From: Bremia lactucae
Taxonomy: Eukaryota; Oomycota; Peronosporomycetes; Peronosporales; Peronosporaceae
Length of the DNA: 64,000 bases
NCBI RefSeq assembly: GCF_004359215.1
Contig: NC_090619.1
Coordinates: forward strand, 5,177,736 to 5,241,735
Direction of reading: 5' to 3'
Position 1 is the first letter of the stretch. Each line of letters begins with the position of its first letter. Position numbers and translations under genes: made by a program. Below are positions 15,301 through 60,840 of this stretch, one piece after another. The notes under the pieces were generated by a model, which saw nothing but the letters and a program-made list of their open reading frames with translations, had not been told where the DNA came from and ran no database searches.

Positions 15301-15412
15301 GACTTTATGGGCAACATTTTTCGTATTTTGATAATAGAATCTTTTTTGCAAATTGACGAGGCGCGGTAGCTCGGTCCCTGCTAAGCAGCCTACCTGCGCT
15401 GTGCAAGCTCAT

Positions 15413-15826
15413 TGTAACGGGGCACTGCCGACTTGTACTGCTTCAGCACAAGTGGTGCTCACGTCACTTCACGTACACTAGTGCGTGCAGAGGAAGACTC
15501 TATAAAAAATACTTGCTTTAAAGAGGGTACACTAAAAACTGTATTAGGATAATTAAGTTCTTCTTGTATTTCTACTTAATACTAACTTAATTATATACTA
15601 ATACAAAACATGTACTAAGAGTCTTATCTGTCTTTATCTTTGCGCGCGTCCAGCGCTGACTGGACCGCGGCGAAAGTAGATATAATGGTCTATATCTACC
15701 AATGGATAAGCTTTTAGAATATTACCATGTAAAGTAATATTCTCCAGAATATTATTTACCTTTTAGATAATATGTTAATTAACAACATTTAAGTGTTGAT
15801 TTCATGTAACGATACACCCCGTTACA
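15413..15826 (-). repeat. Family A solo LTR with 5-bp target duplication
   Basis: The sequence starts TGTAACGGGGCACTGCC and ends ATACACCCCGTTACA, which is the family A LTR in reverse orientation (414 bp). It is flanked by perfect CTCAT repeats at 15408-15412 and 15827-15831. No internal element sequence adjoins it. This is the standard product of LTR-LTR recombination after a full insertion. Confidence 0.92.
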
Positions 15827-26752: not shown

Positions 26753-26989
26753 TTAATTTTTTTGATTAAAAACAAGAAACTTACATCTTGAAATGAAGTA
26801 TATTCTATAAGACGAGAGCATGCAAAATTACGTCATCGTGGTATTTCAATACCATTATTCAAGATGCAATAGAGTGCCCTTCTGAATTATGTAAATTTAA
26901 AAAAATGTTTAAAAAATATAAAGCAAATCTAAAGCTGTGGCCACGCATCTGATGCCCTTTCCACAATAGAATTAGTAGTGTACACGTCT

Positions 26990-27174
26990 TGTAACGGGGC
27001 ACTGCCGACTTGTACTGCTTCAGTACAAGTCCATTTCGCACTGCCTCAGTGCGAGTGGTGTCTCACGTCACTTCACGTACACTAGTACGTACAGAGGAAG
27101 TCTTTTCTTGAAAACACTAGCGTCAAAAAGAGGGTTAATTAAAAACTGTATTTATATACAGTTTAAGTTCTTCT
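26990..27174 (-). repeat. Family A LTR, fragment 1 (interrupted by family B)
   Basis: It starts TGTAACGGGGCACTGCCGAC, the reverse-oriented family A LTR, and is cut after CTTCT at 27174 by the family B element. The sequence resumes at 35577 with the duplicated CTTCT and is homologous to the solo LTR at 15413 across the break. Confidence 0.88.
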
Positions 27175-27667
27175 TGTAATGGGGCACACATCGGTTGGAG
27201 AACCGTTGTTGTGGTACATTTACTTTATTGAAAAATACCCTTTTATATATTTTTTTAAATAGTTAGTTACTTAAAATCTTATTTAGTATGGGTAACAGAT
27301 GTGGTCGCCGCCAGATATAAATCTGGCGGCCAGAATCTACTTTTAATTAGCTAGGGTAAGGTTGTTAGATTTAAATAATTTAATAAGCATAGTTCCCCTT
27401 TTGATCTTAAGGCGTTAAGTACCCTTCTAAGGCTTGCGCATTGATCTGTAAGAGATAAGAGATAGAAGCCTTTCTAAGGTATATCCTCTTGGGCACTAGT
27501 TGCCACTTGGTTCTGCGAACCCCTGAATCCCTTAAACTAGGATTCCTTAAGCTTCAATAGCTTGTACGACCCCCTGAGTTGTAAAACCAATTAGTTCAAT
27601 AGAACAAAGTGACTCTCTGAGACTGAAAGTCTTCCTCTGACTTTAGGAGCGAGGTAGCTCCGCTACA
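27175..27667 (+). repeat. Family B left outer LTR (493 bp)
   Basis: It starts TGTAATGGGGCACACATCGG and ends GCTCCGCTACA. It contains a hairpin CGGTTGGAGAACCG near the start and a near-perfect palindrome GCCGCCAGAT/ATCTGGCGGC at about 27309-27334. It is closer to the inverted LTR at 30242 than to the right outer LTR at 35103. Confidence 0.9.
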
Positions 27668-27669
27668 CC

Positions 27670-27679
27670 TGGTAGCACT
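27670..27679 (+). other. Primer binding site, family B
   Basis: TGGTAGCACT lies 2 nt after the LTR end. Its first eight bases are complementary to a tRNA 3' end UGCUACCA, as in many eukaryotic initiator Met tRNAs. The same decamer follows the family A and C 5' LTRs. Confidence 0.6.
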
Positions 27680-27727
27680 CGTAGTTAATCTACGCCTGAG
27701 TCTTTACAAGTTTAATTTCTCACGAAA

Positions 27728-29040
27728 ATGGAAGAGGTTCTAAAATTGTCAGAAGTGTAACGCGCCGCTTATGACAAGCTCAAAACCTTTTTTGGGCTTG
27801 AGCACGTGGAATTTATTATCTCCCAGGGGCCAGAGATCCTTCATGCAAGGCTTGAAGCCTTCATGCGGTACGAAGCCTCCCTGATCGGTCAGGTAGAGAA
27901 CCATTAAGCGGCATCTATGCCAACCCGGTACATCCCTGTATCTGACTCAGAGCCGAGGGCTCGCCCTCTAACTGTACATGTGAGAACATTTGAGGGAAAA
28001 AAGGGAGAAAATCTCCCTTTTTGGATTAAGCAGATGGAAATGTCCATTGATTCCGCCTTGTTCTTAACAGAACGGCAAAAGGTGGCTATAGGCATTTTCT
28101 AACATGGAAGTTGAGCCATGGAGTGGGCACTATCGTGCAGCACGTCCATAAACGACGCTTTTTCCTCATGGGATTCGCTGAAACAGCAAATGACCAGCAT
28201 GTTTGCACCGCCTGATCAGGCTTTTCGCATGCGAGCACGGCTCCTAGCGATTCGACAGGGTAAAAGAACCCTAGGAGACTTTGTCCAGGAGTTGAGAGCT
28301 ATCATTGCATCTATGCATCAAGACCCGGTGCAAGAAGGAATGAAGTGACCATCTTTATGGGGGGGTCTCAATGAGGGCGTTGCCCGGACGGAGTTGTTCC
28401 GATCTCATCCAGCTACGTTCGAAGAGGCAGTTGTCATAGCGCTACGCTCCGAGTTTGACTTTAAGTCTGCTCGCGTTAGCACGACTGTTTACCGAACAAG
28501 CTCTTCGAGCACATGGGATCCATCTAATAGAGCGGAACCTATGGATCTAAGCCGCGTTGAGGAAGGAGAAGAAGCTCTTCAAGCTGTGGAACAGCATAAG
28601 ACCATCCGTAGATATTATATGTGTGAATGCACGAGAACATTTACGCCCTGCCTGCCCTCTTCGAAATTCGCGTAAAGCTCGAAAGAGCTCCAACTCCGAC
28701 CTATACCAGAGATCTGGTACGGTGCGGGAAAACGTCGATACCCAGTAGGTGCGGGGCGCCCTACTGGGGGAGACCTAGGCTCTGTTGATCCTCAAGGAGG
28801 TGAGAATAAACAGAACCTAGCCTTAATTAGCTCGGTGCACAATGGCTCGGGGCGAGAGTACAAGCCTGGCTTGCTAGTCGCTCAAATGACTGTAAAGGGC
28901 TTTGATAAGCCGTGGTCAATTTTAATTGACTCAGGAGCGTCTTGCAATTATGCTCGACGACTTCCCTCGAAGGAAGTCTACAATACGTTTAGGCGCTTAG
29001 AGCGCATGGAGGTGATACAATCACTGTTCGCTTAGCGACT
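27728..29040 (+). pseudogene. Family B gag and protease (broken)
   Basis: From ATG 27728 the frames read MEEVLKLSEV, then RPLTVHVRTFEGKKGENLPF and FWIKQMEMSIDSALF, then QMTSMFAPPDQAFRMRARLL with QGKRTLGDFVQELRAI, then TFEEAVVIALRSEFDFKSAR and EPMDLSRVEEGE. This is Ty3-type gag. The zinc knuckle after it is destroyed (YYMCECTRTF). A protease core LIDSGASCNYAR lies at about 28920-28960 with its catalytic Asp intact. Stops near 27765, 27905, 28100 and 28346 break the gag frame. Confidence 0.7.
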
Positions 29041-30241
29041 GGGACTCGTGTCACTGTTTCCAAAGCTCCATTGAACTTAGGTATAAAGTTTCTGGACTTT
29101 GACAGTATGTAACGCTGTCTCGTCCTTGATTTGGATTCGAGATATGATCTCATCCTTGATATGGCCTGGTTAAAACACCATGAGCCATAGATCGATTAGA
29201 GGTCTAAGACCTTAGGCGCCAAGCGCAATGTTCCTAGCAAAGTTTTGGAGAGTCATGAACCCACTTTCGCTAGGCAACAAAAGCGCTACTGGCGCGGATC
29301 ATTGAATGAGTCTGTCAGTGTTTTAGACATTGGCATGTGTGAGTTATTCACTCTAATGCTCACCAGAGCCACCATTATTGATGACAGAAGCATACTGACG
29401 ATGTTGATTAGGATCAGTAATAATTGATATACGGACTCTCGGCCAAAGATGCCACCTAAAGGGGCCAAGCTGGTAGGTCGTCTGCGAAGACACCTACTCA
29501 AACCACGCACGAAGTGCACGCGCCGAAGATACGACAATCGAGGAGCTCGACGCGGTTTTTTTGCGGTCCGCCTCGCGGTTGCGATTTTGCAACAACGTTG
29601 GACCCGAGACCGTTGCCTTTTAGCATGTTAAGAACATTAATTCTGAGCCTGACTCAGCAGAAATTAGTGGAACGGCACGTACTCCGTTGAATGACGCTCG
29701 TAATAATAACGATTCACTAAATACTGAAAGCATTGTTGGCCTAAGGCCAAATCATCAAGGGTGCAATATCCCTGAGATACGTGGAGTGGCACGTCTAAGT
29801 CCACCGAGTATGGGCGGCCGAGGTGGCATGATACTAAGTGTCATTAGTGACACTGTTGGCGGTTCGCCAGGACCTCAAGGGTGCAATATCGGCACGTCTA
29901 AGTCCACCGAGTGTGGTCGGCCGAGGTGGCACCATACTAGTGACACTATTGGCGGTTCGCCAGGGCATTTTGGGTCAAACCCTCCTAATGCACGTGAAGC
30001 GACACGTAAACGTTCGCTGTATAAGGGAGTTGAGTTACCTTACTCCTTGTCGGATGTCAAATTAGACACCATGTCTTGTATAGGACCAATACAGGCTGGA
30101 AAACCCGGGGACGTGAATGTCCCGGCCTCTAAGAGGCGTATTGTCTCCACTCCAAGACAGGATGGACACGAAGCGTGTAATCCCTCACAAAGTGATACGA
30201 GAGACCAATTACATACGCTTATAAATTGTGTAACCGGTAAC
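29041..30241 (+). pseudogene. Family B protease-to-RT spacer, with tandem repeat
   Basis: Decayed protease C-terminal sequence (29041-29220) is followed by a 199-codon open frame (29687-30286) that runs into the inverted LTR. Its native part ends at GTAAC (30237-30241). Within it a unit of about 120 bp (TCAAGGGTGCAATATC ... GGCGGTTCGCCAGG) at 29755-29874 is repeated with an internal deletion at 29875-29968. The last native residues (INCVTGN) match the start of the inverted RT segment at 35097. Confidence 0.6.
29755..29968 (+). repeat. Two-copy tandem repeat inside family B
   Basis: Unit 1 is 29755-29874 and unit 2 is 29875-29968. Both contain GGCACGTCTAAGTCCACCGA and TTGGCGGTTCGCCAGG. Unit 2 lacks about 27 bp near its start. 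The repeat keeps the reading frame open. Confidence 0.7.
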
Positions 30242-30727
30242 TGTAGCGGAGCAATCTCGCTCCTAAAGCCAGAGGAAGGCTTTTAGACTCAGAGAGCCAC
30301 TTAGCTCTATTGAATTAATGCGCTTTACAACTCAGGAGTTGTTCAAGCTATTAAAGCTTAAGGAATCCTAGTTCATGGGATTTAGGGGCTCGTAGAACGA
30401 AGTGGCAACTAGTGCCCAAGAGGATATACCTTAGAAAGGCTTCTATCTTTTGCAGATCAATGCGCAAGCCTTAGGAAGGCACTTAACGCTTTAAGATCAA
30501 AAGGGGAACTGAACTTTATTTAATTATTTAAATCTAACAACCTTACCTTAGCTAATTAAAAATAGATTTTGGCAGCCAGATTTATATCTGGCGGCGACCA
30601 CATTTGTTACCCATACTGAATAAGATTTTAAGTAACTAACTATTTAAAAATATATATAAAAGGGTATTTTTCAATAAAGTAAATGTACCACAACAACGGT
30701 TCTCCAACCGATGTGTGTCCCATTACA
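30242..30727 (-). repeat. Family B inverted LTR (original 3' LTR)
   Basis: The reverse complement starts TGTAATGGGACACACATCGG and ends GCTCCGCTACA (486 bp). Its outer terminus is joined exactly to GTAAC at 30237-30241. On its other side, the minus strand reads GATGCGGAGGG directly before the LTR start, a short polypurine tract, so this is a true 3' LTR of the inverted segment. Confidence 0.9.
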
Positions 30728-30836
30728 CCCTCCGCATCAGTCTGTTGACACCGAGTAACAACTTTCGCTTCATTTCTCTTTGAGGTTGGAAACTAAACAG
30801 CTGAAAGTTTGGTTGTGTTTTTCATTCCTTTGTCTA

Positions 30837-31428
30837 ATGACAATCAAGCGTGAGTCACAGACTCTGAGCACCTTCCTCGACGATGAGGGAATGGTGGACT
30901 TTGAAAATCACTCTCAAGCAGATAAGGAGGAAAAATAGCGGCGTTCGCTCACGCCTTCTCCTCCGAGTGAACGTCGGTGAGCCCCGAATCCGTTCCCAGC
31001 ACGTGGTGCCGCTGATGTCTTAACTGCATTGAGCAGGACACGGGACCCTGAGTCCAGCATCATTACGAATTTGCTCGATAAAAAGAAGAGTAGATAATCC
31101 TCATAGAGAAAAGAGCTCGTCGTCGAGCTGCCAAGATAGCGAAAGCTAAAGCTCATAGTAAATATAGATTCACTCCGCTTAGTACGGACGAGCGTCTCAA
31201 AGAGATAGCGGGTCATAGCTTGGCCATCTGGATCTCTGGTGACCCGGCGAGGATACCGGAGGAGATCGCTGCCCGCGACGCTCTTCATGAGCAGTACCTT
31301 ACGCGAAAGGTAATGACGCGAAGCCAATACCTGACGCGTTTACGTGGTCAAGCCCGTGGGGCTTTCGGTGACTTCCATGAGGGAAATTCCGATCGCTTTG
31401 TTTCCAAACGAAACAAGGAGTGAAACCG
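30837..31428 (+). pseudogene. Antisense accessory ORF of family B (broken)
   Basis: This lies between the inverted chromodomain and the polypurine tract/LTR and is opposite in sense to the element's pol, the same place and polarity as the family A antisense ORF. It opens at ATG 30837 (MTIKRESQTLSTFLDDEGMV), stops at 30936, and is readable again at about 31105-31420 (KYRFTPLSTDERLKEIAG, DPARIPEEIAARDALHEQYL, QARGAFGDFHEG). The C-terminal part shares a DP....E...D...L..YL.R pattern with the family A protein (DPSAKNFRAE.DFYLDAFLKHR). Frameshifts and stops make it inactive. Confidence 0.5.
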
Positions 31429-31686
31429 ATGTCTCATTTGAGAACTGGGTTCGCCGGGCCCGCAAACTCCGCAATATCTGGAATATCAGATAATCTACGT
31501 ATAGAGGAGTTGTTCGTTTGGAAGGGAAGCTTCGCTTCGACTTCGCTAAGCTTAAGGCCAAAGGCCAGTTACGTTCGGCATTTATGCCACAAAATGAAGA
31601 GCCTAGCCGATATTTCAGTGCTTCGGTTGACCGTACAACCAAGGATCGAAGCCGCACTGAGGCTTTAGATCCATTTAATCCCACGT

Positions 31687-31953
31687 TTAGTGGTGGGAAG
31701 CGTTGTTGACGCGAGTTGACCTGAGCTTGGCGCTCAAAAACGTCAACGGCGTACGGGCAATCTTGCCGAAGAGGTACCTCGAACTCCCAAGAGTTTTAGA
31801 AGAGGGGTACCCTAGCCACTGAAGCAGACACTGGTATTGACCCTCATGACGACGTCGCTTTACAAGTTTCTCCACATGAAACTGAAGGTTCCTTCGCGCA
31901 TCAAGTAGCGCGGGAGGGGGCCGAAATTTCGGCGGAAGCATTTGATGCTCCAC
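31687..31953 (-). pseudogene. Family B chromodomain
   Basis: On the minus strand, LQFHVEKLVKRRRHEGQYQC followed by LLQWLGYP fits the chromodomain pattern (.VE.I...R...G...YLV.W.GYP). It follows integrase and precedes the antisense ORF, as in family A. Part of a proline-rich linker (PPKFRPPPALLD) precedes it. Confidence 0.65.
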
Positions 31954-32575
31954 GGCACGAGGTGCAACTTCTTCGTGAGGTCCTTGCTCGGGTTGAGGGC
32001 TCTTTTGAGGCGGTTCGGACAGTCTTTCGACGCTGGAGCGTCAGCAGCCTCGTTAAGAGGGCCAGTTGGATATCCTGGTGAGGATGCAACAATCTGCGGC
32101 ACGACCGCCTGTTTCGCCTTCAAGTCCACGTGGGAAGGGTTTCAATATGGCTTAAGCAAGCCAACTTAAAACACTGGGTGTGAACGGAGCTTGCTGAGAA
32201 GGTCTCTTCTTGGCCACGACCGTAAATGGTCCAATAAAGCGCGGGCGCAATTTGGTCTTGAAGACCGCGGAAACCAAGTTGGTAGGAAGGTTTTTAGCGT
32301 TTAGTAAAACTCGGTCTCCGACCATTTAAGAATTAATACAGCTTCTGCCTTTGGTATCTGCTTGTTCTTTTTGTTTGTCTTGGCTATCAGCCATCGTATC
32401 CCTTACATGTCTTAAGACACAAAATCGCGTCGCGAGAAACTCGCTTACTTGTTTCCGAACGGTAACAGGGCTGATATCAGCAAGCCTATCGGCCAATTCT
32501 CCCCCACCAAGCCCTGAACCATGCAGTGGTATCGTTAAATGGAACGCGCGGGCAGGTAAGACTGTTTATATAGAG

Positions 32576-33534
32576 CTAAGTATAGCCTGTTGAAGTATGA
32601 ACAGCGTTATTTAACGCAAACTCTACTACTGGGAGCATTGAGCTCCAGCGCTTTGGTGTCTGAGCACACACGCTGCGTAAAACGTCTTCAATGACGCGAT
32701 TGACACGTTCAGTTTGACCATCGGTCTGCGGATGGTCCGCAGTGGACATATCCAATCTGGTGCCAAGCACTCGGACAATTGATTTTCAGAATTTACCCGT
32801 GAAACGGGGGTCCCGAACAGAGACAATTGCCACTGGTTAACCATGTTGTCGAAACACGCGATCGATAAACAGCTTAGCTGTACCCTCTCCATCAACAAAA
32901 TCCGGCACGGCCGCTAAGTGAGCCATTTTGCTCAAACGGTCAACAAAGACACTATACCGGAGTTACCGGCTGTATCTTTCGTTAGCCCAAAAACAATATC
33001 CATACTAATGGACTCCCAGCAACCTATGGGGACGGAAAGACTCGCCAGTGGCGCAGCAGCATGTACCGAGGGTTTAACCCGTTGGCACGTTTCGCATGTG
33101 CGAACACATGTGCTGACCCATTTATAAAGTTTAGGCCACCAATAACTCTGGCTTATAGAGCCGTAGGTCTTTTCTCTACCGAGATGACCACCAAGGACAG
33201 TATCGTGTGCCTCATAGAGGATTCGGTACTTCAAATCCTTATCATGAGGAACAACGACACGCGGAGGGTCCGCGATGTCTGTGCAATAAAGCAACATGTT
33301 GTTATCGATAGAAAATCGATGTAGCCTTGCACGAAAACGTGCCGGTAATTTAATACCTGAATCCGAGTTCTTTAAAGCTCGTCGCAGAGCTACACACTGT
33401 TCATCCTTTGCGTAAGCCGAGCGAATTAATTCAGGAATAGGTGACGAGATAGTCGTTAAATGAGAAAGCTCATATTCCGGCCTGCGTGTTAATGCATCGG
33501 CCAAAGCATTTTGCTTGCCAGGTTTATACTTCAC
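32576..33534 (-). pseudogene. Family B RNase H tail and integrase
   Basis: The frame 33534-32932 starts in the RNase H/connection end (KPGKQNALADALTRRPEYE), continues through the His2-Cys2 zinc-binding region (HDTVLGGHLGREKTYGSI ... CVRTCETCQRVKP) and reaches the first catalytic Asp (ESISMDIVFGL). After a disrupted segment the frame 32770-32576 carries the Glu motif (TDGQTERVNRVIEDVLR). The middle catalytic Asp region at about 32900-32780 is frameshifted. It is the normal Ty3 integrase order on the minus strand. Confidence 0.8.
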
Positions 33535-33539
33535 CCCGA

Positions 33540-35102
33540 AGTTGTATTCCGCAAGAAAAGGATAGCCATCGGGCCATTCTCTGTGAGAGATTGGGCGACT
33601 TAGTCGCCGTGCGTAATGACGCGTGATCTGTATAAATCACAAACGGCTTAGAGCCGAGCAGATGAACTCTGAATTTGACGAGAGCATACTATAGAGCAAG
33701 TACTCTTTGTCATGAACTGGGTAGTTCTTTTCCGCAGCTTTAAGCTGTCTAGACTCGAACGCAATAACCCGTTCATGCCCCTCAACATTTGTTTGTAACA
33801 GAGCACTGCCACGGCAAAATCTGATGCGTCACAGAAGACACTGAAAGGTCAATTTGGGTTTGGCAGTGCCAGAATCGGGGCATGGATAAGACTATCCTTA
33901 ACTGCTCGAAAAGCATTATTTTCGGTGCTTGTCCACACCATTCTGTATCCTTTTTAAGGAGATTAGATAATTGCCAGGCCATACCAGCGTAATTTTCGCT
34001 CTATTTGTGTAAATAATTGGCGAAACCCAACCACTTACGCAAATTCTTTTGGTTTTTAGGAACCGGCCAATCGACTATGGCTTATACCTTAGCGGGATCC
34101 GCTCTAAGGCCTCGCTTTCCAATGAAGCATCCTAAAAAAGGAATTTCGTCTGCGCCAAAAATGCATTTAGATGCATTGGCATACAATTTGTTTGTGCGCA
34201 ACTCGAGCACTGCTCGCAAATGGTCTAAATGGTTTTCCATATCCGACCGACCCTACTCCGCACGACTATGGACAAAAATGTCATCGAAATAAGTCTGTGC
34301 ATAACCTCGATGAAGGCGAAACAGTTGCGTCACTAGACGATTGAATGTTGCCGGGGCGTTGGAATGCCCTTGTGGCATAACCAGCCACTCCCATAACATG
34401 CCGCCTGGGTACTGACCGCTGTAAGCGGGATATCACTAGCTTGCATGAGCAATTGGTAGTAACCACCGACTAAGTCCAATGCACTGTACATTGTACATCC
34501 CACCATATTATTCTGAAGAACATCCTTTCAAGGAATGGGGGTTTGTGCTGGTATAGTGGCAGCATTAAGCTTATTATTAGCATGTACAATGCGTTATTTA
34601 CCATTTGGCTTTATGACACAAATTGTCGGTGTCGAATGAGGAGATTTCTCTCACGTAACATTCCAGCCTCGTGCTTAGCACGGAAGATATCGTCAACGAC
34701 GTCACACTGCTCCTTTGGTAAAGGCCATTGTCTTGTGACACAGTATTTGGTTCCCGGAACTAAGTCAATTTCATGACGAACACCTCTATCCGGAGGTAAA
34801 ACAGATGGTGGGTTATTACATACCGCATCTTGGAATTCCTAATTAAGGAATGAAAGGGATCCGTAGGATCTTAAGGATCGATGACCCATTTCGCGCACTG
34901 AGTGCAGCTTTTGTGTCATCCAGGACAGCTTCGTCTAGAAGTGACGATGAGTTTAACTGAACCCTACGTCAAATGACATCCATTTCAGATAACTCACCAG
35001 CCTTTAAGACTCGACCGCACTCATCGATAGATATTTCGTCTAGCTCTAAAAGAGCATGTAATAAAGGGATTACCGCAAGGCTAACTTCCCCCTCAATGTT
35101 AC
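33540..35102 (-). pseudogene. Family B reverse transcriptase (broken)
   Basis: Reading leftward from 35097: the pre-RT spacer (IEGEVSLAVIP, then [20 protein letters not shown]), then disrupted fingers, then the palm with GMLWEWLVMPQGHSNAPATF (about 34415-34350) and catalytic YFDDIFVHS (about 34290-34260), followed by a stop, then NHLDHLRAVLECMRTNKLYA and FLGCFIGKRGLRADPAKV (about 34235-34085). Several stops and frameshifts are present. Part of this region (34083-35102) is repeated at 38478-39500. Confidence 0.75.
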
Positions 35103-35576
35103 TGTAAGGAGGCACACATCGGTTGGAGAACCGTTGTTGTGGAACATTTACTTTATGGGTTAAATACCCTTATATCTATTTTTTAAATAGTTAGTTACTT
35201 AAATCCTATTTATTATAAGTCACCGCCAGATATAAATCTGGCGGCCAAAATCTATTTTTAATTAGCTAGGGTAAGGTTGTTAGATTTAAATACTTAAATA
35301 AAGTTCAGTTCCCCTTTTGATCTTAAAGCGTTAAGTGCCTTCCTAAGGCTTGCGCATTGATCTGTAAGAGATAGAAGCCTTTCTAAGGTATATCCTCTTG
35401 GGCACTAGTTGCCACTTGGTTCTACGAACCCCATAATACCTTGAACTAGGATTTCTTAAGCTTTAATAGCTTGTACGACTCCCTGAGTTGTTGAACTCAT
35501 TAATTCAATAGAACGAAGTGACTCACTGAGTCTGAAAGTCTTCCTCTGACTTTAGGAGGGAGGGAGCTTCGCTACA
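35103..35576 (+). repeat. Family B right outer LTR (474 bp)
   Basis: It starts TGTAAGGAGGCACACATCGG and ends GAGCTTCGCTACA. It directly follows GTTAC, the inverted copy of the GTAAC at 30237. After it comes CTTCT, which matches the 5 bp before the left outer LTR. It lacks several segments shared by the other two LTRs, so it is the most divergent of the three. Confidence 0.9.
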
Positions 35577-35756
35577 CTTCTTGTCTATCTACTTAATACT
35601 AACTTAATTATAAACTAATACATAATGTGCACTTAAAGTCTTATCTGTATTTTTCTTTGCGCGCTTCCAGCGCTGACTGGACCGCGGAGAAAGTAGATAT
35701 AATGGTCTATATCTACCAATGGATAAGCCTTTAGTATATAACCATTCCGAATATTA
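35577..35756 (-). repeat. Family A LTR, fragment 2 (left duplicate)
   Basis: Continues the LTR broken at 27174, aligning with the solo LTR at 15413 (ACTTAATACTAACTTAATTA, GCGCTGACTGGACCGCGG, TATATCTACCAATGGATAAG). The pogo element interrupts it at the TA 35755-35756. Confidence 0.85.
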
Positions 35757-37672
35757 CAGTAGAACCCCTCTAAAGTAATACTCTTAGGACCGAAAAGTAA
35801 TATTACTTTATGCGTTTTATTACTTAAGATGCCAACCTCTTCTCTCCAGAAAATTTTCGTTTAGGAGACGCATTACCTAACCCTAACCCTCGACGTGAAG
35901 CTTCAACTTTGACACTTTAACTAAACTAAAATATTTATAAGAAGTACAGAACGGGAACGGCAAATCTAAACGTCTAAGCAAGAACTGCAAACTTAACACA
36001 AAAAATGGCGAAAGCACACCTGAAGGTTGCTCATGCTCCTATCACTAATGAAATCCGCATAGCTATCAGTGAAAGGAAGCGTGATACCAGTGGAACACAA
36101 GAAAAGGGGAGGATTTTTTTGGAGAGACTGTACCCCGATCAAGACACAAATACGTTTCAATTCTCCAATGGCTGGTTGAACAGGTTCAAAGCTCGATATG
36201 GAATCAAAGAGCGAGTGAGACATAGAGAGAGCGGTTCGGTTAACATGGAGATACTCGAGCAATCCTTACCCGCAATTCGAGAAGTTTTGGATCAGTATGA
36301 ATGGAAGGATATCTACAATATGGATGAAACGGGTTTGTTTTACCGACTTCAGGTATGTCGGGGCCAGTTGAAATCACTTTGGAAGCAACTTCAAATACTA
36401 AAATTTATTGCCTCCTCACTTTAGGCTGATCGTTCACTTGCAACGAAGCAACTGGAGGGCCGCAAGCAGCACAAGGAACGGCTAACTTTTGTTGTTTGTG
36501 CCAACGGAGATGGCTCAGATCGTGTCCCACTTTGGGTGATTGGGAAATACTTGAATCCCCGTTGTCTCAAAAATATCAATCGTCAGAACCTTGGCTGCCA
36601 CTACAGGGCAAACCCGAAGGCTTGGATGAACAGTGTATTGTTTTTGGAATGGCTACAATGGTTTAATCGGAGGATGGGGAGAAGACAGGTGCTGCTGATT
36701 ATGGACAATTGTCCTGCTCATGTTCCAATTGACAGCTTGCCGGAGCTGGCCAATGTTAAAATCCTTTACCTGCCGCCCAACACAACTTCCCGAATTCAGC
36801 CTTGTGATGCAGGCATTATTCGAACTTTGAAGGCCTTTTACAGGAAAATTTTCAATCGCAACTTGCTAAGAGCATTGGAGCTGGATGAAACACTTGACAA
36901 TGTGGAAGCGCATAAAAAAGTGGATGTTTTGAAGGCGATGGTGTGGGCTGTGGAGGCCTGGAATATGGTGACCAAGGAAACTATTCGTAATTGTTTTAAT
37001 CACTGCAAAATTCGGACATCAAGCTTGAACATCCAAGTTCCTGCTAGGGCGACCGAACCCCCCGCACATGTTGCAGATGACCTGATGTTACAGAATGATC
37101 AACTGTACCGCAATCCAATGGACATCAACGCCATCCTCAACAACCCCTTGGAGAGAGAGGTCGCCTATAGTCCTGACGTAGAAGACATTGTGGCAGTAAC
37201 AATGGAAGAACATGGATTGTCTTTGCCTGTAGAAGTGGAAGGAGGGATTCCCGATGCGGATGATAGCGAAGTGCCAGCCCCCGTGAAAGCCAAGGACGTC
37301 CTTGATGCAATAAGGTTGTGTGTACTTCATGCAGAGGGAGTGTGATACTTCCACGACTCACAGGAAACTGAATGAAGTTTTGGACGATTTTGAAAGGATA
37401 CAGATTACTGGAAAGAAGCAAGTCACTCTCCATCGATTTCTCTCAAAAGCGGCAAAAGAAGTATAGTTATTTGAAAAAAAAATTTTTTTAGATACAACTT
37501 AATATATTACTTTTGGGGTATGTGTCTACTAATAGTGGGACTTTAAAAAATATTACTTTAATACTTTGGCAAAATATTACTTTAACCTTAAGTCCCAACT
37601 CGGGACCACGAAATTTTATTACTTAGGACGTATTATTACTTTAGAGCGTATTACTTTAGAGGGGTTCTACTG
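35757..37672 (+). mobile_element. pogo/Tigger-like DNA transposon, copy 1 (1916 bp)
   Basis: Terminal inverted repeats are CAGTAGAACCCCTCTAAAGT and ACTTTAGAGGGGTTCTACTG, flanked by TA at 35755-35756 and 37673-37674, the target duplication of Tc1/mariner-pogo elements. Subterminal ATTACTTTA motifs are repeated at both ends (at least four copies on the right), likely transposase-binding sites. The left flank is a family A LTR; the right flank (CCGGTTTTTT) is unrelated, unlike copy 2. Confidence 0.88.
36005..37345 (+). pseudogene. pogo-like DDE transposase, copy 1 (frameshifted C-terminus)
   Basis: Exons 36005-36352 and 36425-37345 with a 72-nt GT-AG intron (phase 0) give 422 residues. A CENP-B/Tc5-type helix-turn-helix is at about 20-75 (FSNGWLNRFKARYGIKERV). 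The DDE_1 catalytic Asp residues are D107 (YNMDETGLFYRL), D210 (LLIMDNCPAH) and D244 (RIQPCDAGIIRTLK). Compared with copy 2, a 5-bp deletion near 37318 shifts the frame and ends the protein about 42 residues early, so only the extreme C-terminus is lost. It probably acts on the terminal repeats in the nucleus, but activity of this copy is uncertain. Confidence 0.85.
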
Positions 37673-37674
37673 TA

Positions 37675-38377: not shown

Positions 38378-38477
38378 NNNNNNNNNNNNNNNNNNNNNNN
38401 NNNNNNNNNNNNNNNNNNNNNNNNNNNNNNNNNNNNNNNNNNNNNNNNNNNNNNNNNNNNNNNNNNNNNNNNNNNNN
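38378..38477. other. Scaffold gap (100 N)
   Basis: A run of exactly 100 N, the usual placeholder for a gap of unknown size. It sits at the left edge of the second duplicated block. Confidence 0.99.
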
Positions 38478-39500
38478 ATACCTTAGCGGGATCCGCTCTA
38501 AGGCCTCGCTTTCCAATGAAGCATCCTAAAAAAGGAATTTCGTCTGCGCCAAAAATGCATTTAGATGCATTGGCATACAATTTGTTTGTGCGCATGCACT
38601 CGAGCACTGCTCGCAAATGGTCTAAATGGTTTTCCATATCCGACCGACCCTACTCCGCACGACTATGGACAAAAATGTCATCGAAATAAGTCTGTGCATA
38701 ACCTCGATGAAGGCGAAACAGTTGCGTCACTAGACGATTGAATGTTGCCGGGGCGTTGGAATGCCCTTGTGGCATAACCAGCCACTCCCATAACATGCCG
38801 CCTGGGTACTGACCGCTGTAAGCGGGATATCACTAGCTTGCATGAGCAATTGGTAGTAACCACCGACTAAGTCCAATGCACTGTACATTGTACATCCCAC
38901 CATATTATTCTGAAGAACATCCTTTCAAGGAATGGGGGTTTGTGCTGGTATAGTGGCAGCATTAAGCTTATTATTAGCATGTACAATGCGTTATTTACCA
39001 TTTGGCTTTATGACACAAATTGTCGGTGTCGAATGAGGAGATTTCTCTCACGTAACATTCCAGCCTCGTGCTTAGCACGGAAGATATCGTCAACGACGTC
39101 ACACTGCTCCTTTGGTAAAGGCCATTGTCTTGTGACACAGTATTTGGTTCCCGGAACTAAGTCAATTTCATGACGAACACCTCTATCCGGAGGTAAAACA
39201 GATGGTGGGTTATTACATACCGCATCTTGGAATTCCTTAATTAAGGAATGAAAGGGATCCGTAGGATCTTAAGGATCGATGACCCATTTCGCGCACTGAG
39301 TGCAGCTTTTGTGTCATCCAGGACAGCTTCGTCTAGAAGTGACGATGAGTTTAACTGAACCCTACGTCAAATGACATCCATTTCAGATAACTCACCAGCC
39401 TTTAAGACTCGACCGCACTCATCGATAGATATTTCGTCTAGCTCTAAAAGAGCATGTAATAAAGGGATTACCGCAAGGCTAACTTCCCCCTCAATGTTAC
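38478..39500 (-). pseudogene. Family B reverse transcriptase fragment (duplicate)
   Basis: Near-identical copy of 34083-35102. On the minus strand it carries the pre-RT spacer, the PQGHSNAPATF and YFDDIFVHS motifs, the same stop after the palm, and FLGCFIGKRGLRADPAKV. The rest of the family B element is absent because the block starts at the scaffold gap. Confidence 0.8.
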
Positions 39501-39974
39501 TGTAAGGAGGCACACATCGGTTGGAGAACCGTTGTTGTGGAACATTTACTTTATGGGTTAAATACCCTTATATCTATTTTTTAAATAGTTAGTTACTTAA
39601 ATCCTATTTATTATAAGTCACCGCCAGATATAAATCTGGCGGCCAAAATCTATTTTTAATTAGCTAGGGTAAGGTTGTTAGATTTAAATACTTAAATAAA
39701 GTTCAGTTCCCCTTTTGATCTTAAAGCGTTAAGTGCCTTCCTAAGGCTTGCGCATTGATCTGTAAGAGATAGAAGCCTTTCTAAGGTATATCCTCTTGGG
39801 CACTAGTTGCCACTTGGTTCTACGAACCCCTTAATACCTTGAACTAGGATTTCTTAAGCTTTAATAGCTTGTACGACTCCCTGAGTTGTTGAACTCATTA
39901 ATTCAATAGAACGAAGTGACTCACTGAGTCTGAAAGTCTTCCTCTGACTTTAGGAGGGAGGGAGCTTCGCTACA
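39501..39974 (+). repeat. Family B LTR (duplicate of 35103-35576)
   Basis: Starts TGTAAGGAGGCACACATCGG and ends CTTCGCTACA, followed by CTTCT. Differs from 35103-35576 by very few bases. Confidence 0.9.
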
Positions 39975-40154
39975 CTTCTTGTCTATCTACTTAATACTAA
40001 CTTAATTATAAACTAATACATAATGTGCACTTAAAGTCTTATCTGTATTTTTCTTTGCGCGCTTCCAGCGCTGACTGGACCGCGGAGAAAGTAGATATAA
40101 TGGTCTATATCTACCAATGGATAAGCCTTTAGTATATAACCATTCCGAATATTA
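39975..40154 (-). repeat. Family A LTR, fragment 2 (right duplicate)
   Basis: Copy of 35577-35756, interrupted by pogo copy 2 at the TA 40153-40154. The remainder of the LTR follows at 42076. Confidence 0.85.
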
Positions 40155-42075
40155 CAGTAGAACCCCTCTAAAGTAATACTCTTAGGACCGAAAAGTAATA
40201 TTACTTTATGCGTTTTATTACTTAAGATGCCAACCTCTTCTCTCCAGAAAATTTTCGTTTAGGAGACGCATTACCTAACCCTAACCCTCGACGTGAAGCT
40301 TCAACTTTGACACTTTAACTAAACTAAAATATTTATAAGAAGTACAGAACGGGAACGGCAAATCTAAACGTCTAAGCAAGAACTGCAAACTTAACACAAA
40401 AAATGGCGAAAGCACACCTGAAGGTTGCTCATGCTCCTATCACTAATGAAATCCGCATAGCTATCAGTGAAAGGAAGCGTGATACCAGTGGAACACAAGA
40501 AAAGGGGAGGATTTTTTTGGAGAGACTGTACCCCGATCAAGACACAAATACGTTTCAATTCTCCAATGGCTGGTTGAACAGGTTCAAAGCTCGATATGGA
40601 ATCAAAGAGCGAGTGAGACATAGAGAGAGCGGTTCGGTTAACATGGAGATACTCGAGCAATCCTTACCCGCAATTCGAGAAGTTTTGAATCAGTATGAAT
40701 GGAAGGATATCTACAATATGGATGAAACGGGTATGTTTTACCGACTTCAGGTATGTCGGGGCCAGTTGAAATCACTTTGGAAGCAACTTCAAATACTAAA
40801 ATTTATTGCCTCCTCACTTTAGGCTGATCGTTCACTTGCAACGAAGCAACTGGAGGGCCGCAAGCAGCACAAGGAACGGCTAACTTTTGTTGTTTGTGCC
40901 AACGGAGATGGCTCAGATCGTGTCCCACTTTGGGTGATTGGGAAATACTTGAATCCTCGTTGTCTCAAAAATATCAATCGTCAGAACCTTGGCTGCCACT
41001 ACAGGGCAAACCCGAAGGCTTGGATGAACAGTGTATTGTTTTTGGAATGGCTACAATGGTTTAATCGGAGGATGGGGAGAAGACAGGTGCTGCTGATTAT
41101 GGACAATTGTCCTGCTCATGTTCCAATTGGCAGCTTGCCGGAGCTGGCCAATGTTAAAATCCTTTACCTGCCGCCCAACACAACTTCCCGAATTCAGCCT
41201 TGTGATGCAGGCATTATTCGAACTTTGAAGGCCTTTTACAGGAAATTTTTTAATCGCAACTTGCTAAGAGCATTGGATCTGGATGAAACACTTGACAATG
41301 TGGAAGCGCATAAAAAAGTGGATGTTTTGAAGGCGATGGTGTGGGCTGTGGAGGCCTGGAATATGGTGACCAAGGAAACTATTCGTAATTGTTTTAATCA
41401 CTGCAAAATTCGGACATCAAGCTTGAACATCCAAGTTCCTGCTAGGGCGACCGAACCCCCCGCAAATGTTGCAGATGACCTGATGTTACAGAATGATCAA
41501 CTGTACCGCAATCCAATGGACATCAACGCCATCCTCAACAACCCCTTGGAGAGAGAGGTCGCCTATAGTCCTGACGTAGAAGACATTGTGGCAGTAACAA
41601 TGGAAGAACATGGATTGTCTTTGCCTGTAGAAGTGGAAGGAGAGATTCCCGATCCGGATGATAGCGAAGTGCCAGCCCCCGTGAAAGCCAAGGACGTCCT
41701 TGATGCAATAAGGTTGTGTAAACTGTACTTCATGCAGAGGGAGTGTGATACTTCCACGACTCACAGGAAACTGAATGAAGTTTTGGACGATTTTGAAAGG
41801 ATACAGATTACTGGAAAGAAGCAAGTCACTCTCCATCGATTTCTCTCAAAAGCGGCAAAAGAAGTATAGTTATTTGAAATTTTTTTTTTTTTAGATACAA
41901 CTTAATATATTACTTTTGGGGTATGTGTCTACTAATAGTGGGACTTTAAAAAATATTACTTTATTACTTTGGCAAAATATTACTTTAACCTTAAGTCCCA
42001 ACTCGGGACCACGAAATTTTATTACTTAGGACGTATTATTACTTTAGAGCGTATTACTTTAGAGGGGTTCTACTG
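40155..42075 (+). mobile_element. pogo/Tigger-like DNA transposon, copy 2 (1921 bp)
   Basis: Same terminal inverted repeats as copy 1 and TA on both sides (40153-40154, 42076-42077). Here the right flank (TCTACCTTTAAGATAAT) is the continuation of the interrupted family A LTR, so this copy shows the original insertion. Subterminal ATTACTTTA repeats are present at both ends. Confidence 0.9.
40403..41869 (+). CDS. pogo-like DDE transposase, copy 2 (intact)
   Basis: Exons 40403-40750 and 40823-41869 with a 72-nt GT-AG intron encode 464 residues, the normal size for Tigger/pogo transposases. The helix-turn-helix (about 20-75) and catalytic D107, D210 and D244 are all present, in DETG, MDNCPAH and PCDAG contexts. 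The C-terminus that copy 1 has lost (RLCKLYFMQRECDTSTTHRK ... HRFLSKAAKEV) is intact. The frame, splice sites and terminal repeats are all preserved, so this copy could be active. The intron contains an in-frame stop, so an unspliced transcript would give only a short DNA-binding peptide of 139 residues. Confidence 0.88.
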
Positions 42076-42148
42076 TATCTACCTTTAAGATAATTTCTTA
42101 ATTAACACTCTTTAGTGTTAATTTCATGTAACGATACACCCCGTTACA
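42076..42148 (-). repeat. Family A LTR, fragment 3 (terminal part)
   Basis: Ends with GTAACGATACACCCCGTTACA, the terminus of the reverse-oriented family A LTR. It is followed by TCACCCCTCCCTTAA, the reverse complement of the family A polypurine tract. Confidence 0.88.
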
Positions 42149-47435: not shown

Positions 47436-47872
47436 NNNNNNNNNNNNNNNNNNNNNNNNNNNNNNNNNNNNNNNNNNNNNNNNNNNNNNNNNNNNNNNNN
47501 NNNNNNNNNNNNNNNNNNNNNNNNNNNNNNNNNNNNNNNNNNNNNNNNNNNNNNNNNNNNNNNNNNNNNNNNNNNNNNNNNNNNNNNNNNNNNNNNNNNN
47601 NNNNNNNNNNNNNNNNNNNNNNNNNNNNNNNNNNNNNNNNNNNNNNNNNNNNNNNNNNNNNNNNNNNNNNNNNNNNNNNNNNNNNNNNNNNNNNNNNNNN
47701 NNNNNNNNNNNNNNNNNNNNNNNNNNNNNNNNNNNNNNNNNNNNNNNNNNNNNNNNNNNNNNNNNNNNNNNNNNNNNNNNNNNNNNNNNNNNNNNNNNNN
47801 NNNNNNNNNNNNNNNNNNNNNNNNNNNNNNNNNNNNNNNNNNNNNNNNNNNNNNNNNNNNNNNNNNNNNNNN
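47436..47872. other. Scaffold gap (437 N)
   Basis: A run of 437 N inside a tandem duplication of the family A 3' end. Sequence on its right (from 47873) repeats that from about 46826. Confidence 0.99.
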
Positions 47873-48990: not shown

Positions 48991-49440
48991 TGTAACGGGG
49001 TGTATCGTTGAATGAAATTAAACTTAAAGGTTATTAATTAATATATTATCTAAAAGGTAGATAATATTTGAAATATTACTTTATATAGTAATGTTCAGAA
49101 TTCTTACCCATCAATAGGTTAGGACCATTATATCTATTTATTCCGCAGACTAATCAGCTGTAGAGGTAATCAAAGAGAGTACAGATAAAATAATGTAAAG
49201 AATTCTATTACATGTTTAGTATTAGATTATAATTAAGTTAGCATTTATAAAGATAGAAAGAGAGACACTTAATTATATTAATACAGTTTTCATTTAACCC
49301 TCTTTAAGCTTGTTACCTTAAACAGAAGTCTACCTCCGCACGTTTTAGTGTACGTGAAATAACGTGAGGCACCACTTGCAAATGAAGCAGTGCAAAGTGG
49401 ACTTGTACTGAAACAGTACAAGTCGTAGTGCCCCGTTACA
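48991..49440 (+). repeat. Family A 3' LTR (450 bp)
   Basis: Starts TGTAACGGGGTGTATCG after the polypurine tract AAGGGAGGGGCGA (48978-48990) and ends AGTGCCCCGTTACA. The terminal hairpin ACTTGTACTG/CAGTACAAGT is kept. The right flank is CCTCG; the matching left flank of the element is not present. Confidence 0.9.
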
Positions 49441-54549: not shown

Positions 54550-55068
54550 TGTAACGGGGTGTATCGTTACATGAAATTAACACTAAAAGGTTGTTAATTA
54601 GTATAATCTAAAAGGTAGATAATATTTGAAGGAATTACTTTATATAGTAATTTCCTGAATTCTTATCTATAGATAGGTATAGACCATTATGTCTATTTAT
54701 TCCGCAGACTAATCAGCTGTAGAAGTAATCAAAGAGAGTTACAAGATAAGATAGATAAGAATTCATTTACATGTTTAGTATTAATTTATAGTCAAGTCAG
54801 CATTTACAAAGATAGATTAACAAGACACTTAACTATATTAATACAGTTTTCATTTTACACTCTTAAGCTAACTTGCCTTAAGAGAAGTCTTCCTCTANNN
54901 NNNNNNNNNNNNNNNNNNNNNNNNNNNNNNNNNNNNNNNNNNNNNNNNNNNNNNNNNNNNNNNNNNNNNNNNNNNNNNNNNNNNNNNNNNNNNNNNNCAC
55001 CACTCACATCTGAAACAGTGTGAAGTGGACTTGTACTGAAACAGTACAAGTCGCAGTGCCCCGTTACA
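54550..55068 (+). repeat. Family A solo LTR nested in family C (with gap)
   Basis: Starts TGTAACGGGGTGTATCG and ends CAGTGCCCCGTTACA, with 100 N inside (54898-54997). The flanks AGACC (54545-54549) and AGACT (55069-55073) are a near-perfect 5-bp target duplication. It interrupts the leader between the family C PBS and gag. Confidence 0.88.
54898..54997. other. Scaffold gap (100 N)
   Basis: Exactly 100 N, inside a family A LTR, so the true missing length is probably short (roughly tens of bases of LTR). Confidence 0.99.
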
Positions 55069-60465: not shown

Positions 60466-60840
60466 AGGGAATATTATTTTACATCGTAACATTCAAAAAG
60501 CTTATTCATTGGTAGTATAGGCCTTTATATCGACTTGCTTCGCGGTCCAGTCAGCACTGGACGCGCGTAAAGAGAGAGACATATAAGACTTTATTACCTG
60601 TTTTGTATTAGTATATAATTAAGTTAGTAGAAAATAATTAGAAACAGAAGAACTTAATTATGTTAAATAGAGTTTACTTTTGACCCTCTTAAAAGCAAGT
60701 GTTTCAAAGAGGGTCTTTCTCTGCACGTACTAGTGTACGTGTGCGCACCACTTGCACTGAAGCTGCAAAGTGAACTTGTACTGAAGCAGTGCAAAGTGGA
60801 CTTGTACTGAAGCAGTACAAGTCGGCAGTATCCCGTTACA
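60466..60840 (+). repeat. Family A 5' LTR, 5'-truncated
   Basis: From AATATTATTTTACATCG onward it aligns with the family A LTR (CGCGGTCCAGTCAGCACTGG, ACGTACTAGTGTACGT, ACTTGTACTGAAGCAGTACA) and ends CAGTATCCCGTTACA. The first part of the LTR is missing. One hairpin unit is duplicated near 60774-60800. Confidence 0.8.

Follow-up and report, generated by a model that had tools for sequence, protein, structure and literature searches.

A Ty3/gypsy copy of Bremia lactucae with an inverted pol half, probably formed by reverse nested insertion and inversion between long terminal repeats

A stretch of 64,000 nucleotides from the oomycete Bremia lactucae (contig NC_090619.1, positions 5,177,736 to 5,241,735), here called the window, harbors at 27170-35581 a composite Ty3/gypsy retrotransposon copy with three long terminal repeats (LTRs), in which a reversed LTR separates the gag/protease side from an inverted pol side. 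On present evidence the structure is real, and it bears the footprint of integrase. Its most likely origin, to which we assign a probability of about 0.6, is the insertion of a second element of the same family in reverse orientation, followed by an inversion between inverted LTRs. The preliminary description of this locus had proposed autointegration, i.e., the attack of a complementary DNA (cDNA) on itself, and a subsequent rescue by a resident LTR. The composite is made up of the following features:

27170-27174, no strand: outer target-site duplication, left, CTTCT
27175-27667, plus strand: LTR1 (L1), 493 bp, with TGTA...TACA ends
27668-30241, plus strand: block A, the gag/protease side, with broken frames and GTAAC at its end, co-linear with family copies
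30237-30241, plus strand: inner 5-bp target GTAAC
30242-30727, minus strand: LTR2 (L2), 486 bp, reversed
30728-35102, minus strand: block B, the pol side (reverse transcriptase (RT), ribonuclease H (RNase H), integrase, 3' tail), inverted, co-linear with family copies
35098-35102, minus strand: inner 5-bp target in inverted orientation (GTTAC on the plus strand)
35103-35576, plus strand: LTR3 (L3), 474 bp
35577-35581, no strand: outer target-site duplication, right, CTTCT

From left to right, the order is thus LTR(+), gag/protease, GTAAC, LTR(-), inverted pol, GTTAC, and LTR(+), all between the two copies of CTTCT. Both inner joins fall exactly on LTR termini (TGTA...TACA), and the 5 bp at these joins are exact reverse complements of each other; any one such pair would agree by chance with a probability of roughly 1 in 1024. 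Coordinates, block order and the reverse-complementary joins at exact LTR ends were re-derived and agree to the base with the preliminary description; the two reading frames named there are open as well, with CVTGN in 29624-30286(+) and IEGEVSL in 34969-35169(-).

The inner site was read in other members of the family in the genome (115,934,607 bases in 220 contigs). This gave 23 junctions in 22 loci, namely 21 junctions in 20 element loci and one each in L074 and L075. In other family copies the gag/protease block continues into the pol block with an overlap of one GTAAC; the unbroken junction carries GTAAC in 20 of the 23 readings and an altered site in three (L009, L016, L020). Counted among the 20 is L010, where 48 extra bases, which repeat sequence of both sides, separate two GTAAC copies at the junction (L010:4000-4057). 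When the 40 top-scoring of 2194 first-look candidates are considered, the join of gag/protease to LTR(-) occurs at this locus only. The join pol(-)-GTTAC-LTR(+) occurs, among the 40 scored, at this locus and in a 99.25% duplicate beyond a scaffold gap. Such a pair of exact, mutually inverted 5-mers at two exact LTR ends is the mark of integrase. That LTR ends of the same family were joined at GTAAC by integrase action is near certain, and on this point the junction readings support the earlier proposal. Autointegration is not proven by inverted copies of a target sequence at exact LTR ends alone.

The outer ends point to a single event. When the flanks 26989-27174 and 35577-35745 are joined with one CTTCT, they align along LTRs of another family present in the window, and the closest uninterrupted relative of this target (15412-15728) has a single CTTCT at the corresponding place; further relatives lie at 1690-2005, 49123-49440, and 60483-60840. 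Therefore, the outer ends look like one insertion, and the composite appears to occupy a single ordinary site of insertion within another family's LTR, which substantiates the outer CTTCT duplication noted before. No second copy of the left flank, as an alternate allele would provide, was found among the 40 best-scored matches.

These features can be derived in a few steps. An ordinary full-length gypsy element would have inserted at CTTCT in an LTR of another family, and a second element of the same family would have entered the first in reverse at GTAAC, producing a 5-bp duplication, and would then have shrunk to a solo LTR. The reversed solo LTR and the 3' LTR of the first element would have formed inverted repeats about 4.4 kb apart, between which homologous recombination could have flipped the pol half. 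Subsequent gene conversion between the LTRs at this place may have patched their sequences. The succession of these events is inferred, as are the reduction to a solo LTR, the crossover and the conversion. In a symbolic check, reverse insertion plus one LTR-LTR inversion yields the observed block order, and the outer direct and inner inverted target duplications are likewise those predicted by this route. For a nested insertion in direct orientation, no single flip yields the structure. Retrotransposition of an already inverted element was rejected as well: LTR3 is preceded by the start of the pol block and not by the tract that, read in the orientation of the element, precedes LTR2, and hence normal plus-strand priming there is unlikely. 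Solo-LTR formation is common in LTR elements, and nested insertion and LTR recombination are commonplace in LTR-rich genomes. A 26-base LTR pattern has 1531 matches in the genome at up to 2 mismatches, such that nesting within the family is to be expected.

The symbolic check yields an identical block order for autointegration. Here, both ends of a cDNA would attack the GTAAC of their own molecule, and the resulting inversion circle would enter, through homologous recombination, a solo LTR already resident at CTTCT. The inverted 5-bp duplication of a self target at exact LTR ends, which this route entails, is present. If so, the locus would be a chromosomal fossil, an oomycete gypsy inversion circle rescued via a resident LTR and thereby a dead-end product made heritable; we consider this possible but rather unlikely. 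Two papers describe autointegration to deletion or inversion circles for retroviruses and retrotransposons (PMC2644782, PMC4751563), and for several LTR elements of Magnaporthe autointegration is inferred to be the main way of circle formation (PMC9694575). Against this stand the circle reads from yeast, none of which has the inverted form while one mosaic read fits autointegration (PMC4751563), and the statement that circles of transposable elements are generally considered a dead end (PMC10462705).

The two routes differ in the pairing that they predict among the three LTRs. L1, L2, and L3 were compared with 77 LTR rows from 73 loci, excluding matches that cover 420 bases or fewer of the query LTR. 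Pairing by LTR region was assessed by quartet analysis, pairwise distances and bootstrap, and runs were tested by 5000 shuffles of site order. Over the whole LTR, L1 and L2 differ by 8.5%, L1 and L3 by 9.3%, and L2 and L3 by 9.5%. These values lie within the range of six same-orientation LTR pairs at other loci (0 to 12.4%, leaving out the L003 pair with 14.7%, which has opposite orientation and does not represent one element), which marks the copy as old but within the usual range. Summed over three regions, the distance to the family majority amounts to 27, 33, and 26 of 471 sites for L1, L2, and L3, respectively. The right LTR, earlier described as more divergent than the others, is thus not clearly so overall; the statement clearly holds only for LTR positions 1-140.

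In this first region, the distance between L1 and L2 is 1.6%, compared with 10.3% for L1-L3 and 11.9% for L2-L3, and L1+L2 receives a bootstrap of 0.99. Nesting with inversion predicts L1 with L2 on the unique 3' (U3) side, as seen here, whereas under autointegration L2 should pair with L3 in the U3 part and with L1 in the unique 5' (U5) part. The alleles common to L1 and L2 in 1-140 have frequencies of 0 to 0.06 in the other LTR rows. A 26-base piece of their haplotype recurs nowhere else in the genome as an exact match, and at three further places with 3 mismatches; a subfamily origin of the shared U3 haplotype was rejected on this ground. A similarity search returned L2 at 97% and the next match at 91% (among 40 scored places). 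The data do show that a recent shared tract links two inverted LTRs, L1 and L2, at this locus. As the piece is exact nowhere else, L1 and L2 have a common history there, whether they were paired from the start or exchanged sequence as inverted LTRs.

Towards the other end of the LTR the picture changes. In positions 141-275, L2 and L3 are closest (2.2%); both have remained close to the majority state of the family, and L1 shows a surplus of private changes. In positions 276-486, L1 and L3 are closest with 9.0%, versus 11.8% and 12.8% for the other pairs, and no site supports this pairing; in the quartet analysis one site supports L1+L2 and one L2+L3. The runs favoring L1-L2 (6-133) and L2-L3 (207-275) were matched by none of the 5000 shuffles. 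Hence, the alignment of the three LTRs, which the preliminary description had proposed for mapping crossover points, reveals a patchwork of relationships, and the mosaic predicted by autointegration is not seen.

Several of these results weigh against nested insertion with inversion, too. The predicted association of L1 with L3 on the U5 side appears as a distance rank in 276-486 only; it has neither a run that stands out (the best L1-L3 run is reached by 85% or 77% of the shuffles) nor, in the quartet analysis, a site that joins L1 and L3 against the family state, and in 141-275 the closest pair is L2-L3 and not L1-L3. Furthermore, L1 and L2 differ at 2 of 126 sites on the left and L1 and L3 at 30 of 345 on the right (Fisher p = 0.006), which misfits one LTR pair of one age, so that later conversion must be added. 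Gene conversion is needed under either the nested or the autointegration route, which weakens the LTR test. A further difficulty arises from three alleles, each found in less than 5% of the other rows, that are common to L1, L2, and L3. Of 394 triples drawn at random from other copies, 390 have no rare allele in common, three have one, and one has two. Consequently, the inserting elements must have been near relatives, or the LTRs were homogenized by conversion. The haplotype of the three LTRs as a feature unique to the locus was not fully upheld, and not all of these alleles are confined to it. Among the first 100 of 188 places, exact matches to the L3 pattern are limited to L3 and the copy of it in the duplicate, but C2:12489 carries both changed letters of this pattern, with two other mismatches, and C4:7334376 has one of them.

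For autointegration, the shared rare alleles are as expected if one cDNA gave most of the LTR sequence, yet the resident LTR would need the same rare alleles. If the crossover fell into the first 55 bases of the LTR, this route would be rescued on the U3 side, yet L1-L2 would then be expected to be closest throughout, and in 141-275 and 276-486 it is not. A crossover so near the end, or gene conversion at a later time, may still save the route. Altogether, block order and inverted duplication of the earlier proposal stand; self-attack of a cDNA and rescue are unnecessary to explain them, and its LTR mosaic is absent. The rare alleles would also be accounted for by two sister cDNAs, one of which integrates into the other within a particle or cell before the composite enters at CTTCT and undergoes LTR-LTR deletion and inversion, with no need of a resident LTR. 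This scheme takes more steps than nested insertion and shares the difficulty with the LTR mosaic; we regard it as very improbable.

A search for comparable copies covered the 20 element loci and five more, 25 longer loci in total. Neither a second element with an internal inverted LTR of this structure, which counts against autointegration, nor a resolved complete same-family LTR nested in reverse in gag/pol, which counts against nested insertion, was found among them. Together, these two negatives lend support to neither route.

Could the structure stem from the assembly? A reversed solo LTR might lie at GTAAC next to a pol side in normal orientation, with the contig between the inverted LTRs misplaced, or another false join might have occurred. 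The window is scaffolded, with runs of N at 38378-38477, 47436-47872, and 54898-54997. According to PMC6570648, the assembly of B. lactucae SF5 combined Moleculo reads with mate pairs and PacBio data, followed by gap filling, and has a contig N50 of 30.6 kb. Moreover, the left inner join was seen once only, and the in-place internal inversions that six of 20 fetched copies carry may point to a recurrent fault of the assembly. Against an artefact, 27170-35581 contains no N, and a random false join would not give an inverted GTAAC footprint at exact LTR ends. In addition, the arrangement pol(-)-GTTAC-LTR3-CTTCT occurs twice, in 34084-37674 and in its 99.25% copy, which is compatible with two haplotypes, given a heterozygosity of SF5 of 1.17% (PMC6570648):

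38478-42077, no strand: 99.25% duplicate of 34084-37674, starting right after the 100-N gap (38378-38477) and repeating pol(-)-GTTAC-LTR(+)-CTTCT

This duplicate probably represents the second haplotype or else a contig end that was not merged; read as a second haplotype, which is the natural reading, it supports the right inner join. Taken together, an artefact is improbable.

The copies with in-place internal inversions are L005, L007, L009, L015, L019, and L020. Breakpoints are available for five of these six. In L020 (5926-6873) and L007 (5856-7179) they are blunt without loss of a base, and in L009, L015, and L019 they are less clean. These inversions may represent unusual biology or an assembly artefact. 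Other rearrangements were noted in the family. In L006 (8364-9055), the 3' LTR is broken near an internal palindrome (LTR position 138-146) and continues with about 200 foreign bases, which on visual inspection resemble the beginning of another family's LTR, followed by the remainder in reverse. Family copies of opposite orientation lie side by side in L074 (4609-6501) and L075 (5954-6751), where an N run or the end of the stretch hides any nesting. C1:12064271, a candidate for a nested reversed LTR, reads instead as an element that has suffered a deletion and whose central part is inverted.

Pfam searches of ten open pieces of the composite identified Retrotrans_gag (PF03732) in 28115-28345 (E 1.5e-9), the integrase zinc-binding domain Integrase_H2C2 (PF17921) in 32935-33636(-) (E 4.2e-22), and RT_RNaseH (PF17917) in 33640-33828(-) (E 1.8e-9). 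Of these ten, the protease piece, two RT-side pieces, another piece from the integrase side and two from the antisense frame gave no Pfam match, and a second gag-side piece gave a match at chance level only. The composite has the LTRs and 5-bp target duplication of Ty3/gypsy elements and, allowing for the inversion, gag followed by RNase H before integrase. It is a Ty3/gypsy copy with broken frames, old and dead.

On its right side the composite is adjoined by a DNA transposon of about 1.9 kb (35755-37674) with 30-bp inverted ends of 96.7% identity, which contains an open piece at 36005-36421 matching HTH_Tnp_Tc5 (E 1.1e-8). The two copies 34084-37674 and 38478-42077 diverge exactly at the end of this transposon, as would be seen with an unmerged haplotype or where contigs were joined within a repeat.

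Among known systems, the integrase piece resembles Ty3/gypsy elements of Phytophthora and relatives: it has 225 relatives at E <= 0.001, and within the 120 of them listed nearly all named ones are from Phytophthora, such as P0005 with 65% over 95% of the piece. From these elements the Bremia copy differs by its broken frames and inverted pol half. With the autointegration inversion circles of retroviruses and Ty1 (PMC2644782, PMC4751563), the locus shares the inverted target duplication and the order LTR(+)-A-t-LTR(-)-B(-)-t'. The circle order is taken from the symbolic check, and an inverted two-LTR circle is named in PMC4751563. Those circles are extrachromosomal, whereas the Bremia structure is chromosomal and has a third LTR and an outer target duplication. 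No chromosomal autointegration inversion is described in the listed titles and abstracts of open-licence literature on autointegration, nested insertion, Ty1 inversion and oomycetes. If autointegration were true, suicide circles could return to chromosomes and reshape retroelement copies; a paper on extrachromosomal circular DNA in Arabidopsis states that such a return is generally not expected, though suggested in some systems (PMC10462705).

Read as a reverse nested insertion with subsequent inversion, the locus is a clean example of how nesting and LTR-LTR recombination rearrange elements, and it calls for caution in taking inverted duplications as proof of autointegration. No un-inverted intermediate was found. 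With nested LTR insertions that underwent solo-LTR formation and LTR-LTR inversion, the locus shares exact LTR ends and 5-bp duplications, and hybrid LTRs at the ends of the inversion may be a further common feature; it differs in that both target duplications survive here to the base, such that the steps are readable.

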